64,000 bases of DNA from Rhododendron vialii (taxonomy: Eukaryota > Streptophyta > Magnoliopsida > Ericales > Ericaceae), in NCBI RefSeq assembly GCF_030253575.1, contig NC_080559.1, positions 27,120,501 to 27,184,500 of the forward strand, written 5' to 3'. Below the pieces are notes generated by a model. It worked only from the letters and a program-made list of their open reading frames with translations. It was not told where the DNA came from and searched no databases. The translations under genes and the position numbers were made by a program. Shown here piece by piece: positions 38,233-46,745 of this stretch. Position 1 is the stretch's first letter. The number at the start of each line of letters is the position of its first letter.

Positions 38233-39652
38233 CCGATATGATTTATGTTGCACTGTGTTAGAACATGAATCTGGATGGGTGCTACAATAACAAAGAAACC
38301 TTCAAAAAGCCCCAAGGCTAGTAGTTTTTGATTGCATGATCGAAATGCTCTCCTTCGTTTGTTTCTTGTACTCGTATTGCTAGTTTTTCTTGTACTCTGT
38401 ATTACTAGTTTTCGGAGAAAATAAAACTACAAAGAACTGCTTTTCATTTTCTGTTGAATTCAGTCTCAATTCACACAAGGTTGTTTCACCACACACACAC
38501 ATCATATTGTTACTCCAGGGCAACTATGACACCCTACAGAGGACTCTAACCTCAATTCCATAACAAGAAGGTTACCACATTTGTGCAAACGAGAAGGTTC
38601 AATAATTCCAAACATCACCTCCAGTGGCCTCATGGAGATGTAATCTTCCTATGATGCTGGCTAAAGGAATCAAGGACAAAAAGCTAAGGATCCTACCACA
38701 TATAGCATATATAGCTGGTGGAGTGGTAAGTGTTCCATGAGCCTTCTAATGTGTGTAATACCCAATGCCAGGATATTCCTATGATGGAACATTGTAACTT
38801 ACAACATCTTATCTACATCAACATCCTTGCAATGGCTCATCCATCCCTTCCATTATATGAAAGATGTAGACAGAAATGCAAGTCTCTCAACTCTCTAAGT
38901 TTGGGAAAATTTCAAAATACCCCTAACCTTTACTCTAAATTTCAATTAGACTCCGAACCTTTAAAAAAAATCAATTTTACTCCCAACTTATCTTCTGTTA
39001 ATCAAAACGTCCCCTTCCGTCCAAATGACTAATGGATTTCGTTAAAGGCTCTGTTAAATAGCGTCCCGATCGAATTTTGATGATCTGAGTCGCTCAATGT
39101 GATCAGAACGTGATTTTAAGGGTATCCAATAAGAAATTAGCAAAAAAAATAACAGGGAAGGGCTTGATTTGAGCAGTTTCTTATTGAACTGTTCAATAAA
39201 AAACTATTCAGATGAAGTCCTTATCGGTCATTTTTTTTGGTGATTTCTCGCAAGTACTTTTAAAATCATGTTCTGATCACATTGCACGGTTCGAATCAGC
39301 GAAATTCAATCGAAAAAAAAAAGATGCGGACGAAAGTAAAATCCGAACTTCCTCACTTGAACAAAATCCGAAAAAATGATTCCCAGTAATGCTACATACA
39401 TACCCGGAAAAAAGACTCTAGAGATTGAGAGTGATAGGCTGACATCACCCAGCTGCGTGGGACCCGTCTACTATAAAACTTTGTTTCCTTTCTTCTCTGG
39501 GCGCTCCCACATTAATTTCCTCTCTCTCTCTTCTCTTTTTTATTCCCTTTTTTTTTTATCCACCTTTTTTATTTCCTTTATTATAGTAAAAATATCTCTT
39601 CTCTTCTCTTTTTGCTATCCTCTCCCTCTCTCTCGGAAGCATAACTTCAAAC
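38233..39652. other. SBT1.3 3' flank and intergenic
   Basis: No gene. 38890-39370 looks like an old transposon: its two ends carry related A-rich wording about ACCCCTAACCTTT and CGAACTTCCTC, but no TSD was found. The last 150 bp before 39652 are a CT-rich tract. Confidence 0.4.
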
Positions 39653-40753
39653 AATAAGTCTACACACCAGGAAATCAGCCCATGCCCTAACCCTGGATAG
39701 CCCAAAACGACGTCGTTTTGGGCGTCCTTAAATAAATAAAAAATAAAAAAAACCAAATTGCTGAAATTTTGAATCGGCCTTTCTACCATCGCGCGAAAAC
39801 AGAACATGGAGATATCAGAGGAGGAGGAGGAGCAGCCCGACCACCAACCTCACCTCCACCACTTTCGTCCACCAGCCTCACCACCACCACCGGTGGCCAC
39901 CAGTGTAACCTCCACTCCGACGATCATGAGCACCACCGGCGATCGACTCGTTGCGAAAACCGACACACCCGCGACATCAAATCCACCGCCAAGGTCTTTC
40001 TTTCTCCCTCTCTCATATTTATATATCTGTTGGTCCTAAATTCGATTTGGGTTCTGACTTCAGTGTTGGTGGGGGCAAATGACGGAAGTAAAGGGTGGTT
40101 AACTCCTATCATGAATTGATAACTTATTGCTTATGAGGGGTGGGGGTTTTATCCCTCTAAATAATGCAAAATGTCAGGGTAAATCTGTATTAGGGTTCTA
40201 AATTTTGCCCCAGTTTACGGATTTGGTCCTTGTTCATTAATTACTTGAAGTCTTGAACATTTGAGTTCTCAACCTAGGATGCTTTTTAGCAACGTATATG
40301 GGATGAAGGATAGCTTAAGAGGACAAATAAATTATGTTCATTCTATACTCTTTACCTAGTGGAAGGCCAATAACATGTTATCAGGGGAAAAAAAGGACTT
40401 GTGAACTGAAGACAAAAAAGAGAAAGCACAGCTTTCGTTGTTGGCCTTTTTATAGAGATCTCCTCTCTTTTTCATTCTTACTGAGCTAACTAGCACGGTA
40501 AAGTGTCAAGAAGTAAGTGGAACTGTTTGGAATTTGTCTTGGAAACGGTTTCTTGATTGACATTTGGAGCTACACTAACATGAATTGATTGTTCATATGC
40601 ATATACCCACTGGATTGATATTGTGGTTTGCCAAGATAAGCTCATGTCATAATTTTGGGATAGTGGCTTTTACACTTGATATTTGGCATGCAATGATATT
40701 GCAGTTTGCCGAGATAAGCTCATGTCATAATATTTTTATTCTTGAACATGCAG

Positions 40754-42353
40754 GTTTCTGTTGCCATCACCAATATCTTTGATGTTGCCAGAGTTCGTTC
40801 CGTGAAAAGAGTCCACACTAAAGTTCGAATCAAGTACGATAACTCGTCATCGACAATTGAAGCACGTCGACATGACAACATGTGCAATCTCTTTAATGAG
40901 GTTGCCGATTTGACGGAAGATAGTCAAGAGAAATATGATAAGGTGATGACACGGTTATTTGAGCTAAAAAGAGAGTTGATTGAATCTTCGATTGTTTGTG
41001 AAAGTAATATGACTTCTGGTACTCCTAATAATTCCTTTTCAATAGGAGATGAAATTCTACCCTCTAAAGAGAGCATGAACATACTTGACCCGGTACAACT
41101 TCGTCGAAAAGGGAGACCGCCAACCAAAAGGAAAGAAGGCTTTGTCGAAAAAGTTGTTAAGAAGAAAAAAGAAACACAAAAGAAGACATTGTCGAAGGAA
41201 AAACCCAAGGTATAAGTTCATGTAAAATTTGAAATTATTTGTATTGCTAATTTCATGTTTTCTATTGAACTTTTTATACTTATGTTCCATGTAAACTATT
41301 TTTTAGGAGTTTGAGACACAAGAGAGGTTGGAACACAATAATTGTCAATTTCAGGAGGTTGGGATACAAGAGAGTGTGATCAATATTAATGTAATATTTT
41401 CTTTTTTTTTTTGTATAATTAATTTGTTTTTGCTCTACTTGTTTATTTTTTTATGTTATGTTTCATGTTAAATTATTGGTGATGTTGTTGGGCAGAGTTA
41501 CCCAAGCTACATGGGGCAGTTAATGTGGCCAAATATGATGTCTCATAATACGCGGCCAAATATGGCACAAGGCGGCGTCCTCCCCTTAGTTGCAGGAACC
41601 TTCAACTATGCCCACGTTTCTTCGACGGAAACGTGTTTTCACGTTCCCGGCGAAGGAAACTCCAAGAAACCCGTCCCAATAACGACGGAAACTCGTTCCT
41701 TACCTATATGGAAACTTACACCCAAAAAACGGTTGAGAGACTTATGATTCAAGTTGCAATTGGTACCTTTAAAGTTGTTTTGATCTTGTTGGTAAGCACA
41801 TCTGATATTAACCTTCTAGATTCATATTAATGCCCGTAACTTTTACGCCTACTTAATATGCACAAGAGCTCTATTGTGTAATCATGTGCTACAATAAAAA
41901 TGTTGAAATATAAATAGTAACTTATAATTTTAATAGTAATATTTTATGTGGTAGAATAATAATTTTATATTGACATTTAACAATATAAAATTTCAAAATA
42001 TATGTATAATTTTAATAATTTTTCCTAACCGCTCTCAATGGCGCTCCCACACTTCTGTGATCATCCGCTCTCCCGTCCCCGGCCCCGCCCCCGCTCCGGC
42101 TCCCGCTCCCGTCCTCGCTCCCGCTTCGTGTAACTAAGGTCCTTCCATTTTCTTCAAGTTTATGCCCAACCGGAACAAGTTTTAACCAATTTATATACAA
42201 GTTTCCAAGTTCACAAAGCACCATGCCAAGTTTTACCAGTACTCAAGTTTGGGGAAGAGGACAATCAAGTTTTTGGGGAGATCAACGTCAACGTTGGGAA
42301 GGAGCACAATCAAGTTTTATGGAAAGTCAAGAGCAAGGGTGGGGAGGAGCATA
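40754..42353 (+). pseudogene. FAR1-related (FRS/MULE transposase-like) C-terminal remnant
   Basis: Exons by frame and splice sites: 40754-41209, 41307-41390 and one from 41496. The first reads from VSVAITNIFDVARVRS to the family's usual C-terminal block CNLFNEVADLTEDSQEKYDKV followed by LDPVQLRRKGRPPTKRKEGF. The third begins SYPSYMGQLMWPNMM. A later piece, MPSFTSTQVWGRGQSSF (42222-42353), looks like the true C-terminal end, separated by about 450 bp of probable insertion. The FAR1 DNA-binding domain, MULE transposase core and SWIM zinc finger are all missing. Upstream, 39806-39988 is an open Pro/His-rich stretch starting MEISEEEEEQPDHQ, with a plausible donor; it may be the first exon of a chimeric transcript. 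Confidence 0.6.
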
Positions 42354-42872
42354 ATAAAGTATTTCAAAAATGTTGAATGCGAATGATAACAGCGAATAGT
42401 AGAAGACTTGCTTATTGATATAGGGAGTTTCTTGTATTCTGTTAGAAACTAATTTATGGTAATTCTCTCATTCATGTTTTGTGGTGAAGTGAAAATTATG
42501 TGGTGTTTCTATCATTTTGTTTAATGAAAAAGGTGTCACATTCAATGTTGGTAACAGTTGTGTATGCATTTCAGTTTTGAGTTTCAATGTTGGTAACAAT
42601 TACTTCAAAAGTAGGTGTTGGAAATTGAGTTTCAGTTTGGAGTTTCTGGACTGGTGGAGTTTGAGTTTCTAGAATGTCCTTGTGTCGTGTCCGTTTTCGT
42701 GTCGGACACGGTTCGTGTCCTAGTTTTTGAAAAATAATGTGAAACATTGGTGACAAGTGAAATTTGATCCTAATAATAATGGAGAGTAGTTCACTTGGTT
42801 GTTCTATGGAAATAATGAATATGTATTGTTATTTTCATTGGTCAGGACATTGATGAATCTGTAATAGTATTA

Positions 42873-43329
42873 GAGCATCCACAATGTAATAAGCAAATTG
42901 GTATGGATAAGCAAACTTAACAACAATGTTAAAAAAATACCTCACATTGTAATAAGCAAAGTTACAAGTCTTTTAGCAAATAACCAAATTCCACCCATCC
43001 CATAACCAAACTTAACAACTTTTACCAATAACCAAAACTTAATAACCAAACCCAATAACCAAATTCAAAACTAAAAAATTAAAAAACACCTCACATTAGA
43101 ATTGTCTCATCAAGACGAATAATTTGGTGTGGTCGGGTGTATGATTGGAACTTGTTTGCAATTGGACATAGGTGCATTGCATATTGTGGGGTTTTTTTTT
43201 TATAGGGATACAAAAATAACCAATGTGGAGGTCAAGTTTGTTAAGTTTGATTATGAACTAAATGGATAATCAAATGCTGACGTGACACATTTTGATTATC
43301 GATTTTGATTATTCCCATTGCGGATGCTC
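42873..43329. mobile_element. PIF/Harbinger-type MITE nested in the MULE
   Basis: 457 bp with ends GAGCATCCACAATG and CATTGCGGATGCTC, flanked by the 3-bp target TTA on both sides (42870-42872 and 43330-43332), the Harbinger/Tourist signature. AT-rich, repeats AACCAAA wording, no ORF. Confidence 0.75.
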
Positions 43330-44339
43330 TTAGCATTACGACTGCTTTGTTGAACCTGTGAATGTTGTAAGGTTGCAATGTGTTGGATTATATTGGATGA
43401 ATGCAATTTATATTAGTCAAACGTATTGTATTGTATCCGTATCGTATCCATATCCGTATCGTATCTTGAAAGATGTTTTGTGTCGTATCCATATTGAGTT
43501 TCATTTTTAGTTTCTGGAGTGCTAGAAATTGAGTTTATGGAATATCCTTGTTTCGTGTCCGTTTTCGTATCGGACACGTGTCAGACGCTGCTCCTTTTTC
43601 TCCTCGTCATCAAAAAGTTAGGATTTCAAACTTAAGTATTTTTGTTACCTCTTGGCCTTCTTTTTCAACAACATACACACCAATGCAGGTGTCTAAATGT
43701 AATTAGCATATGCAGGAAAGTATAGGTCAAAGCAGTTTGGCTTGCTGTTACATTTTCAGCATAAGTTGCTCATTACCGTAGCTACAAAATATTTCATGCT
43801 GATCTTGTAGTTTCTATGAGGCTAAGTTGTTTGCCAAGTTCATGATAATGCCTAGAGCTGGCAAAAGGGGACACGACGTAGTTTCTAGTAAAATTTGGGC
43901 AGCACCTCCCCTATTTTTATCCTAACCCGACGTCTTGCGTCTCGTTTAGTACAACAACAACATGTTACGCACAAGCCCACACTGGGCATTTATCATCCTA
44001 ATGACCATTCACAAAGCCAAAGTCATAAAATCATCAAGCACATTCAAGTTTAAAGTTTTGAAACAACAAAGAAAACCAAACATTGTCTTCAGAAAACCAC
44101 GAAAGCAACAAAAAATAAATAGAGCAAACTCTGGCATTCACTAGAATGATGAGCGTAATACATAGTCTTCCAGATACAAAAACCATTATATGGGCATTAC
44201 ATTTATCCTCTCCCTTAAGCTGCGAGCAAAAAATAAAAATAAAAATAAAAATAACTACTATCACCACCCTCACTATCATCGTCCTCATGCTCCCGGCTTC
44301 CTCCTCCTCCTCACTACCCGTCTCCTCTTCGTCCTCATC

Positions 44340-44481
44340 CTCGTCATCGTCGGCATCGACACTGGAAGATGTTTGAAGCATCATTAGGATGTTCACAGTA
44401 ATAGCTACAACATGAATGGGTTGTGGCATGATACGGGTCTTCTTGTTGTCCCTCGCCGCGTTTTTCAGCCAATTCCAGCAC
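44340..44481 (-). pseudogene. Histone H2A-derived fragment inside the MULE
   Basis: On the minus strand an intron-like TTTTAACAG acceptor precedes 44481. The sequence then encodes VLELA, a one-base insertion (GCTGAAAAACGCG), and continues in the next frame as NAARDNKKTRIMP. This is the histone-fold block of plant H2A (VLELAGNAARDNKKTRI), and plant H2A genes commonly have an intron at this point. After PQPIHVVA (for the family's PRHIQLAV) similarity fades into an acidic Asp/Glu run. Frameshifted and incomplete, so not functional as H2A. Confidence 0.65.
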
Positions 44482-44602
44482 CTGTTAAAACACACATCAA
44501 TTAGGCCATCTTCTTTGTAAACCACCTTGCTCAAATTCTGAAATAAGTTGATCAGCTTGCAAAATTAAACCTTGGGTAAATCTAATTTCCGCACACATTT
44601 AA

Positions 44603-44945
44603 ATGAGCAGTCATCTCAATAAGACCCTTGTCAAGAAAGCGAATCAGGTGGATGCACACAGACTCGACGTTGAAATGTCTGCCATGCTGAAAGAACAATT
44701 GGTTAATGTCTTTAGTCTAATGAAGGTATGTATCACATGGCTTATTTGGTTTTTCAATTGAAGAGGTTACTGGGATAGCTACAAGGAATTCAACTTGTTT
44801 CTCTTCTTTTCCTTGGGATTAGCCAGGATTTTTATTCCAATATGAACCAGAACTGGATGTTTTTTTTGAGTTTCTCATATGGTGGTTCTCCATTTGGGTT
44901 GATAAGCCTACTCCAGGGAATGCTCTTATGTATTCTATAGCTGCA
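44603..44945 (+). pseudogene. PEX2 (peroxin 2) gene fragment captured by the MULE
   Basis: Two exon pieces with intact splice sites. 44603-44725 encodes VDAHRLDVEMSAMLKEQ and LVNVFSLMK, then GTATGT. After a TTAG acceptor at 44822, 44823 onwards encodes PGFLFQYEPELDVFFEF, LIWWFSIWVDKPTPGNALM. This matches the N-terminal part of plant PEX2, a RING peroxin of the peroxisomal import machinery, almost residue for residue from memory. The TM-rich middle and the RING domain are absent. The intron is retained, so the capture was from DNA, not cDNA. Confidence 0.8.
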
Positions 44946-45911
44946 GTCTATACAATCCAATGTGCAACTATTTTTTCTACCAAATGAGAGACTATATATT
45001 CATTTGAAGCATTGTCTACAGAGGAGAATCAGATAGGCATTTCAAGTAAGTCTACCACACTTCTAATAGTCATTTAATTGCCTATTAACCTATAAAATAA
45101 AAAGCAAAGGGGTTAAATTTCACGCCCCTTGAACATCTTTCTTAATATTTAATCACTTGATCTTGCAGTTTATACAAAGGTAAATAAAAATACACAAACT
45201 CTCTGTAAATTCCCTTGGTCCTTGAAAAATCCCAAGAAAGTAGAAAACTTCAGTATATGATCGAAACTACATTATGAAATCATGTACAATTCTTATATTA
45301 GCAATACACACTGTGGTTCAATTTGGATTCAAAATCCTAACTTTCAATTGAAATCTCATCTTTCAATTCCAAGCAAAAACGAAATAAGGAAAAGCAAAGA
45401 TACAAAAAACCCTAACTTTCAATTGAGAGAGAAACGAACAAAATAACGAACAGAGATAGACCTTGGCGGTGTGTGGTCGCGTTGGAAGTCGTGAAGGCAA
45501 AAATTGCCACTGGTGGCGGCGGTGGAGGGAAGGTCGCCGGTGGTGGTCGCCGTGATGGTGTTGGTCTGGTCGTCGTCCTCCTCTCCTCCTCTCTCTCCCT
45601 TTTTCTCTCTCATCGTGCGCGTAGAACCAGATGAAGTATTTTGATCTTTTTTTTTTTTTTAGGGACGCCCAAAACGACGTCGTTTTGGGCTATCCAGGGT
45701 TGGGGCATGGGCTGGTTTCTTGGTGTGTAGACTTATTGATCAAAAGCATGAGAAGGAAACGACTCGCCCCGTTCTACTGAAGCCATCCACCTCTTTATTC
45801 CTCTTCTAAAGCTAGATCAGAGAGAAAATTACTTAAGAGTGCTGCATCAATCTCGTGGGCTACCTCGTTGCTTTACAGAATTTGTAATTTTGCTACAGTT
45901 CCTTGTTATAA

Positions 45912-46745
<834 letters not shown>

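Follow-up and report, generated by a model that had tools for sequence, protein, structure and literature searches.

A non-autonomous Mutator-like element of Rhododendron vialii that probably carries captured host DNA

In a 64,000-nucleotide stretch of the Rhododendron vialii genome (C3:27120501-27184500, hereafter the window, within which element coordinates are counted), the segment from 39652 to 45738 is a member of a Mutator-like element (MULE) family with long terminal inverted repeats (TIRs). Our data indicate, with a probability of roughly 0.93, that it belongs to a FAR1-type Rhododendron MULE family as a non-autonomous copy with an internal deletion, and that it carries captured host DNA. 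A first-pass annotation, made from the sequence alone, had described two inverted ends enclosing fragments of PEX2 and histone H2A and exons of a FAR1-like gene; all of these structural observations were confirmed, and its interpretation of them was supported in part. We propose that the ancestor of the element encoded a FAR1-MULE-SWIM transposase, the first exon of which would have lain within the long TIR, and that host DNA (an H2A piece, a scrap matching C5 and a PEX2 piece) was inserted between the 3' end of the transposase gene and the right TIR. The composite is present today at seven or more sites, and its copies have lost differing parts of the transposase.

Ends, transposase remnant and captured DNA

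The inverted arms of the element (39652-39751 and 45639-45738) are 100 nt long and 91% complementary, and their outermost 76 bp, the ~75-bp near-identical ends first noted, contain only three mismatches. Further inward the similarity is weaker and partly low-complexity, and it reaches a splice donor ~342 bp from the left end and 277 bp from the right end. A search of the R. vialii assembly (13 contigs, 532,647,506 bases) with the 76-bp end returned at least 16 matches, including the window's own two, so the further copies on which the first-pass interpretation hinged do exist. The window copy thus has the long TIRs, of about 100 bp or more, that mark MULEs, and the 14 further matches to the 76-bp end lie in the ten sibling loci that we fetched (L009-L018). 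Both ends were located in eight copies (the window copy, L009, L010, L011, L012, L013, L015 and L018), while L014, L016 and L017, with a single good end located each, stand outside the count of target duplications. Five of these eight have identical 9-bp flanks directly at CAATAAG-like termini: L011 (TTTTGCATA), L012 (GTCCCGGGG), L015 (TATGTATAC), L018 (TTTCTGCAA) and L013, in which the flank is poly-T and therefore weak. Long TIRs and 9-bp duplications together are the MULE pattern (PMC3310237, PMC2528002). For the window copy, two candidate duplications (AAGCATAAC/AAGCATGAG and TTCAAA/ATCAAA) were dropped, because 9-mers with two or fewer mismatches arose in 180 of 300 random pairs of equal search space and because the ends of the siblings show that the element terminates at CAATAAG or a similar sequence. 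The family also includes a MITE (miniature inverted-repeat transposable element)-sized member, a 679-bp TIR pair with identical 9-bp flanks at 7539-8217 of L015.

The FAR1-like C-terminal exons of the window copy matched 33 of 58 candidate homologues at E<=1e-3, the best of them 88% identical. In L013, which spans 7,417 bp between its ends, we found FAR1 (7.2e-16), MULE (2e-20) and SWIM (4.1e-5) domains, indicating that the family encodes a MULE-type transposase; the domains are spread over three overlapping frames, and we make no claim that L013 is active. The window copy is 95% identical to L013 over 224 bp ending at 40803 and 96% identical over the next 783 bp, and ~1.8 kb of the L013 transposase is missing from the window between those two matches. 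L018 is another deletion product of the transposase region, and L010 and L011 keep ~490 bp that include the FAR1 DNA-binding part (94% identical to L013 in L010) before rejoining at the last transposase exon. The deletions are thus complementary, with the DNA-binding part retained in L010 and L011 and the C-terminal part in the window copy. Judged by sequence comparison, the FAR1-like exons are what is left of a transposase native to this family and not a third captured gene, because L013 has FAR1, MULE and SWIM domains between the same type of ends. The FAR1 part is likewise not foreign to the TIR family: L013 and, in part, L018 enclose this gene within their TIRs, and neither locus matches PEX2 or H2A.

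The PEX2 fragment, two exons on the plus strand, was confirmed both by a Pfam match (Pex2_Pex12, E=2.2e-7) and by alignment to the host PEX2 gene, which is identical at 278 of 293 positions (95%) of 44642-44934. Since this ungapped 293-bp match includes the 97-bp intron, PEX2 was captured at the DNA level. The PEX2 query found nine places in the genome, namely the seven elements, C8 (95%) and C5 (94% across the initial 48 bp). The locus on C8 is that of host PEX2, as eight stretches of Camellia PEX2 protein, from residue 1 to residue 325 of 345, line up along the fetched 7 kb; this line-up identifies the gene and does not establish an unbroken reading of it. A PDB search with the PEX2 piece returned nothing at E<=1.

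Beyond what the first-pass annotation had reported, we found a further captured scrap of ~50 bp, matching C5, and a microhomology junction between it and the PEX2 piece. The two donors have exactly AATCAGGT (8 bp) in common at this point, and the copies continue with the C5 sequence for one base past it before changing to PEX2. Because the junction falls within the 8 bp common to both donors, the two pieces may have been joined by copy-type repair with template switching. The same junction is present in all seven cargo copies, and at three of 285 columns all seven carry the same base unlike that of host PEX2, one of the three being the C5 donor base. These shared features, the three non-host columns together with the common junction, suggest that a single capture event lies behind all seven copies. 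Some 240 bases downstream of the C5 stretch is a frame that Pfam assigns weakly, just under the cut-off, to the Rdx family (E=1.8e-4).

The H2A piece consists of ~24 codons at 44410-44481 (~72 bp, minus strand) that match residues 51-74 of PDB H2A chains (E=1.1e-5) when two frames are joined over a one-base shift. The frameshifted, minus-strand H2A fragment originally placed at 44340-44481 therefore stands for 44410-44481, but the rest of that interval has no H2A match. The piece starts at a splice acceptor and was presumably captured as DNA from the acceptor onward. Consequently, the earlier proposal that at least two unrelated host fragments were taken up as DNA is supported for PEX2 through its intron and is deduced from protein similarity for H2A.

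Both pieces are present in the window copy and in six of the ten sibling loci (L009, L010, L011, L012, L016 and L017), whereas L014 contains only part of the downstream frame of the H2A exon. The same cargo therefore occurs at different sites, in elements that lack part of the transposase and contain host gene fragments (PEX2 with its intron, H2A by protein similarity), as is characteristic of Pack-MULEs. In an unrooted tree of the seven cargo copies (937 alignment columns), a branch with support of 100/99 separates the window copy, L010 and L011 from L009, L012, L016 and L017, and the former three share a PEX2-piece end that differs from that of the latter four. The cargo pieces are shared beyond one species, since an R. 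molle sequence (P0034) begins with the same C5/PEX2 join and an R. griersonianum sequence (P0156) has the H2A piece. In P0034 the join is followed by a MAP65-like piece (Pfam E=1.1e-4, under the cut-off), which suggests an exchange of partners within the element family; this piece has no match in the window and none in the ten element sequences at E<=1e-4, and a PDB search with P0034 returned nothing at E<=1.

Splice donors in the TIRs and the annotated chimera

A donor motif, CACCGCCAAG followed by GT, starts 272-405 bp from both ends in the window copy, L010, L011, L013 and L018. In L012 and L017 it was found near the right end, as was a variant differing by one base in L016 (a left end could not be properly placed in L016 or L017). 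Because one of the two donors in L013 sits on the transposase side, the TIR appears to carry the first exon of the transposase and the opposite TIR a copy of the same exon. The left-end exon of the window had no tblastn match at E<=0.01 in the 33 FAR1-like homologues. Similarity between the TIR exons and the N-termini of P0017, P0020 and P0021 was low-complexity and was not used as evidence.

An annotated R. vialii gene model, P0154 (LOC131321294, 199 aa), matches the window at 100% and is composed of two exons, the TIR exon and the H2A piece. The model joins 45613-45462 to the acceptor before 44481, and its intron contains the PEX2 piece in antisense orientation. Another R. vialii model, P0155, matches L017 at 100% over its residues 16-204. 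Matches of the chimeric protein to DUF3169 and CENP-B were under the curated cut-offs and were judged to be composition-driven. The first-pass annotation had suggested that a chimera may be transcribed from the left end of the element; instead, the annotated chimera is encoded on the minus strand and begins at the right end, and the left exon is the one without a match among the homologues.

Since an exon with its splice donor is found in similar form at either end, captured DNA that brings an acceptor could be spliced to the TIR exon, a step that at the right end would yield the annotated TIR-exon::H2A gene model. TIR promoters that drive the interiors of Pack-MULEs have been described (PMC3310237). 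We tentatively suggest, as an idea that falls well short of an even chance, that the element acts as a two-ended splice trap in which each TIR provides the first exon and donor of the transposase, and host DNA acquired through microhomology-guided template switching is immediately spliced into a chimeric gene from either end of a transposase-bearing element that is still mobile. If this is true, the element would make new gene structures while mobile.

The coordinates of these and other features are given in Table 1. The two nested insertions are a 554-bp sequence, with flanking 8-bp repeats (41577-41584 and 42139-42146, 7/8 alike) from which we take it to be hAT-like, and a 457-bp MITE that is presumably Tourist-like. 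The 377-bp stretch next to the PEX2 piece is possibly another captured piece. Ten window frames were searched with Pfam for further cargo; eight gave no match and two gave matches under the curated cut-off (E 0.0065-0.0067). The right flank of the element contains a MITE-like inverted repeat (45912-46745, arms GGCCATCCACAGTGG). A 3-kb left half (628-3600 of L009), common to L009, L012, L014 and L016 (94-96% between copies) and absent from the window, may hold further captured DNA; Pfam gave no match for six of the 20 listed frames of at least 60 aa in the L009 copy.

Table 1. Features of the element and their positions in the window
Feature	Position	Strand	Basis
Left TIR and putative first exon, donor CACCGCCAAG then GTCT	39652..39993	+	TIR pair; similar donors near ends of siblings
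Putative intron 1 of the former transposase gene	39994..40753	+	Splice signals; nearly whole length in L010/L011, last part in L013/L018
Start of transposase exon 2, truncated by internal deletion	40754..40802	+	~1.8 kb lost relative to L013; junction near 40802/40803
FAR1-related C-terminal transposase exons and introns	40803..41584	+	96.5% to L013
Nested 554-bp insertion, short TIRs CTTAGTTGCA/CTTAGTTACA	41585..42138	.	Inside last transposase exon; no match in L010, L011, L013, L018
Last transposase exon resumed, then 3' region	42139..42396	+	L013 92%, L018 93%, in part L010/L011 94%
Nested 457-bp MITE, TTA flanks	42873..43329	.	No match in L010, L011, L013, L018
Exon 2 of the chimera, comprising the H2A piece (44410-44481) and a following acidic and hydrophobic frame	44037..44481	-	P0154, 100%
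C5-matching piece	44592..44650	+	59 bp, 91.5%; junction bases in common with the PEX2 piece
PEX2 piece: two partial exons around a 97-bp intron (44726-44822)	44642..44934	+	95% to host PEX2 on C8
377-bp stretch	44935..45311	.	Matched in L010, L011; not in L009, L012, L016, L017 beyond a short overlap
Right TIR with exon 1 of the chimera (coding part 45613-45462; GT of the donor at 45461-45460)	45462..45738	-	P0154 gene model

Alternative origins of the element and its parts

Several observations weigh against an internally deleted MULE with captured host DNA. The window copy has no target duplication (its flanks agree at 3/9 positions), and L009 and L010, although both two-ended, have no identical 9-bp flanks. 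The donor motif was not found at either L009 end, at the left end of L012 or at the single located end of L014. The match to the C5 donor is short (48-59 bp), and the H2A origin comes from protein similarity, whereas donor loci are at hand for the PEX2 and C5 pieces. Finally, the right-end chimera is an annotated gene model, the transcription of which is presumed.

The missing duplication would be explained if the window copy had arisen by recombination between a cargo element resembling L010 and a transposase element resembling L013, as no duplication is anticipated in recombinant elements (PMC3310237). Consistent with such an exchange, the C-terminal transposase exons are common only with L013 and partly L018, and the cargo only with the other copies. 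We nevertheless consider recombination unlikely, since L010 and L011 hold another portion of the transposase in the corresponding position, together with the same downstream 3' region, such that one ancestor plus deletions suffices, and missing duplications in grapevine MULEs have been ascribed to age (PMC2528002).

Maintenance of the TIR-exon::H2A chimera by selection, as a functional gene of recent origin, is quite improbable, even though there are two annotated R. vialii loci and a related R. griersonianum model, and the length of its 176-codon open frame was reached in 0 of 300 local and 7 of 300 whole-element shuffles. Counted from the start of the H2A exon, the frame is 148 codons long in the window copy and shorter in all six siblings (L017, 130; L016, 125; L012, 71; L009, 8; L010, 1; L011, 1), and in the sibling model part of exon 1 is in another frame. 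The summed ratio of nonsynonymous to synonymous changes (pN/pS; computed without the first seven codons, stops and codons with gaps) was 0.67, which is below 1 but, with 2-6 synonymous differences per pair among 21 non-independent pairs, reflects too few changes to decide and neither shows nor excludes weak constraint. No host function is supported for the element or the chimera, and we favour the interpretation that they have none.

Less probable again is that the FAR1-like exons come from a domesticated FRS gene, captured from the host as a third gene. Plants do have FAR1/FRS genes as host genes (PMC8599713), and Pfam identified no MULE domain in the window frames scanned and no transposase domain in the C-terminal frame. 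However, L013 and, in part, L018 contain this gene within TIRs of the same kind, flanked by 9-bp duplications and without a match to PEX2 or H2A; in L013 the TIR next to the transposase holds a window-like donor; and the N-terminal part occupies the same place in L010 and L011. The FAR1-related similarity described in the first-pass annotation is therefore real, but the status of these exons as a captured gene did not hold. Chance similarity or a low-complexity artefact, which the short H2A match and the low-complexity inner TIRs might suggest, is ruled out by the 95% identity to PEX2 over 293 bp with an intron, the six sibling copies and the identical 9-bp flanks of the family. An internally deleted, FAR1-type MULE with captured host DNA remains the explanation that we prefer.

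Relation to known elements

A search of the literature on Pack-MULEs, Mutator elements and gene capture in Rhododendron found no report of this family, which may be undescribed; the 'undescribed composite' of the first-pass annotation is apt for the family within the literature searched, but the kind of element is well known. With the PEX2 donor, the C5 donor, the 8-bp junction, the transposase siblings and the cargo siblings in one assembly, much of the order of events is readable, providing unusually clear evidence of cargo acquisition in a known kind of element, the Pack-MULE. The annotated chimera also illustrates that a gene catalogue can list a transposon end and a histone scrap as a new gene. 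Of most interest are the presence of a first exon at both ends and the microhomology between the two donors.

FAR1-type transposases are linked to Jittery. Among the Jittery-like MULEs described in melon and grapevine are some that have captured a ULP gene, and those of grapevine resemble the Rhododendron family in that the captured sequence lies downstream of the transposase (PMC2528002). In Rhododendron, by contrast, the cargo is PEX2 and H2A rather than ULP, and the cargo copies found are deleted derivatives. In the KI-MULE (Kaonashi) of Arabidopsis, a captured piece likewise travels with a MULE transposase, in reverse orientation, but KI-MULEs are described as having no TIRs, whereas those of the Rhododendron family are long (PMC2528002, PMC8277862).

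A close parallel is with the Pack-MULEs of rice, tomato, Arabidopsis and other plants (PMC8903248, PMC3310237, PMC2528002), which share with the Rhododendron family long TIRs, 9-bp duplications, intron-bearing gene pieces and copies at several loci, and for which transcription from the TIR has been proposed. The Rhododendron element keeps a transposase remnant beside its cargo and has a similar exon and donor in both TIRs, features that may set it apart from other Pack-MULEs. Whether Pack-MULEs in plants originate by gap filling or by fork switching has been called worth exploring (PMC8277862). Like the Pack-TIRs of animals, for which gap filling or template switching is described in the same source, the Rhododendron element has microhomology at a junction; it is, however, a plant MULE, and its junction links two captured pieces to each other rather than the element to its cargo.

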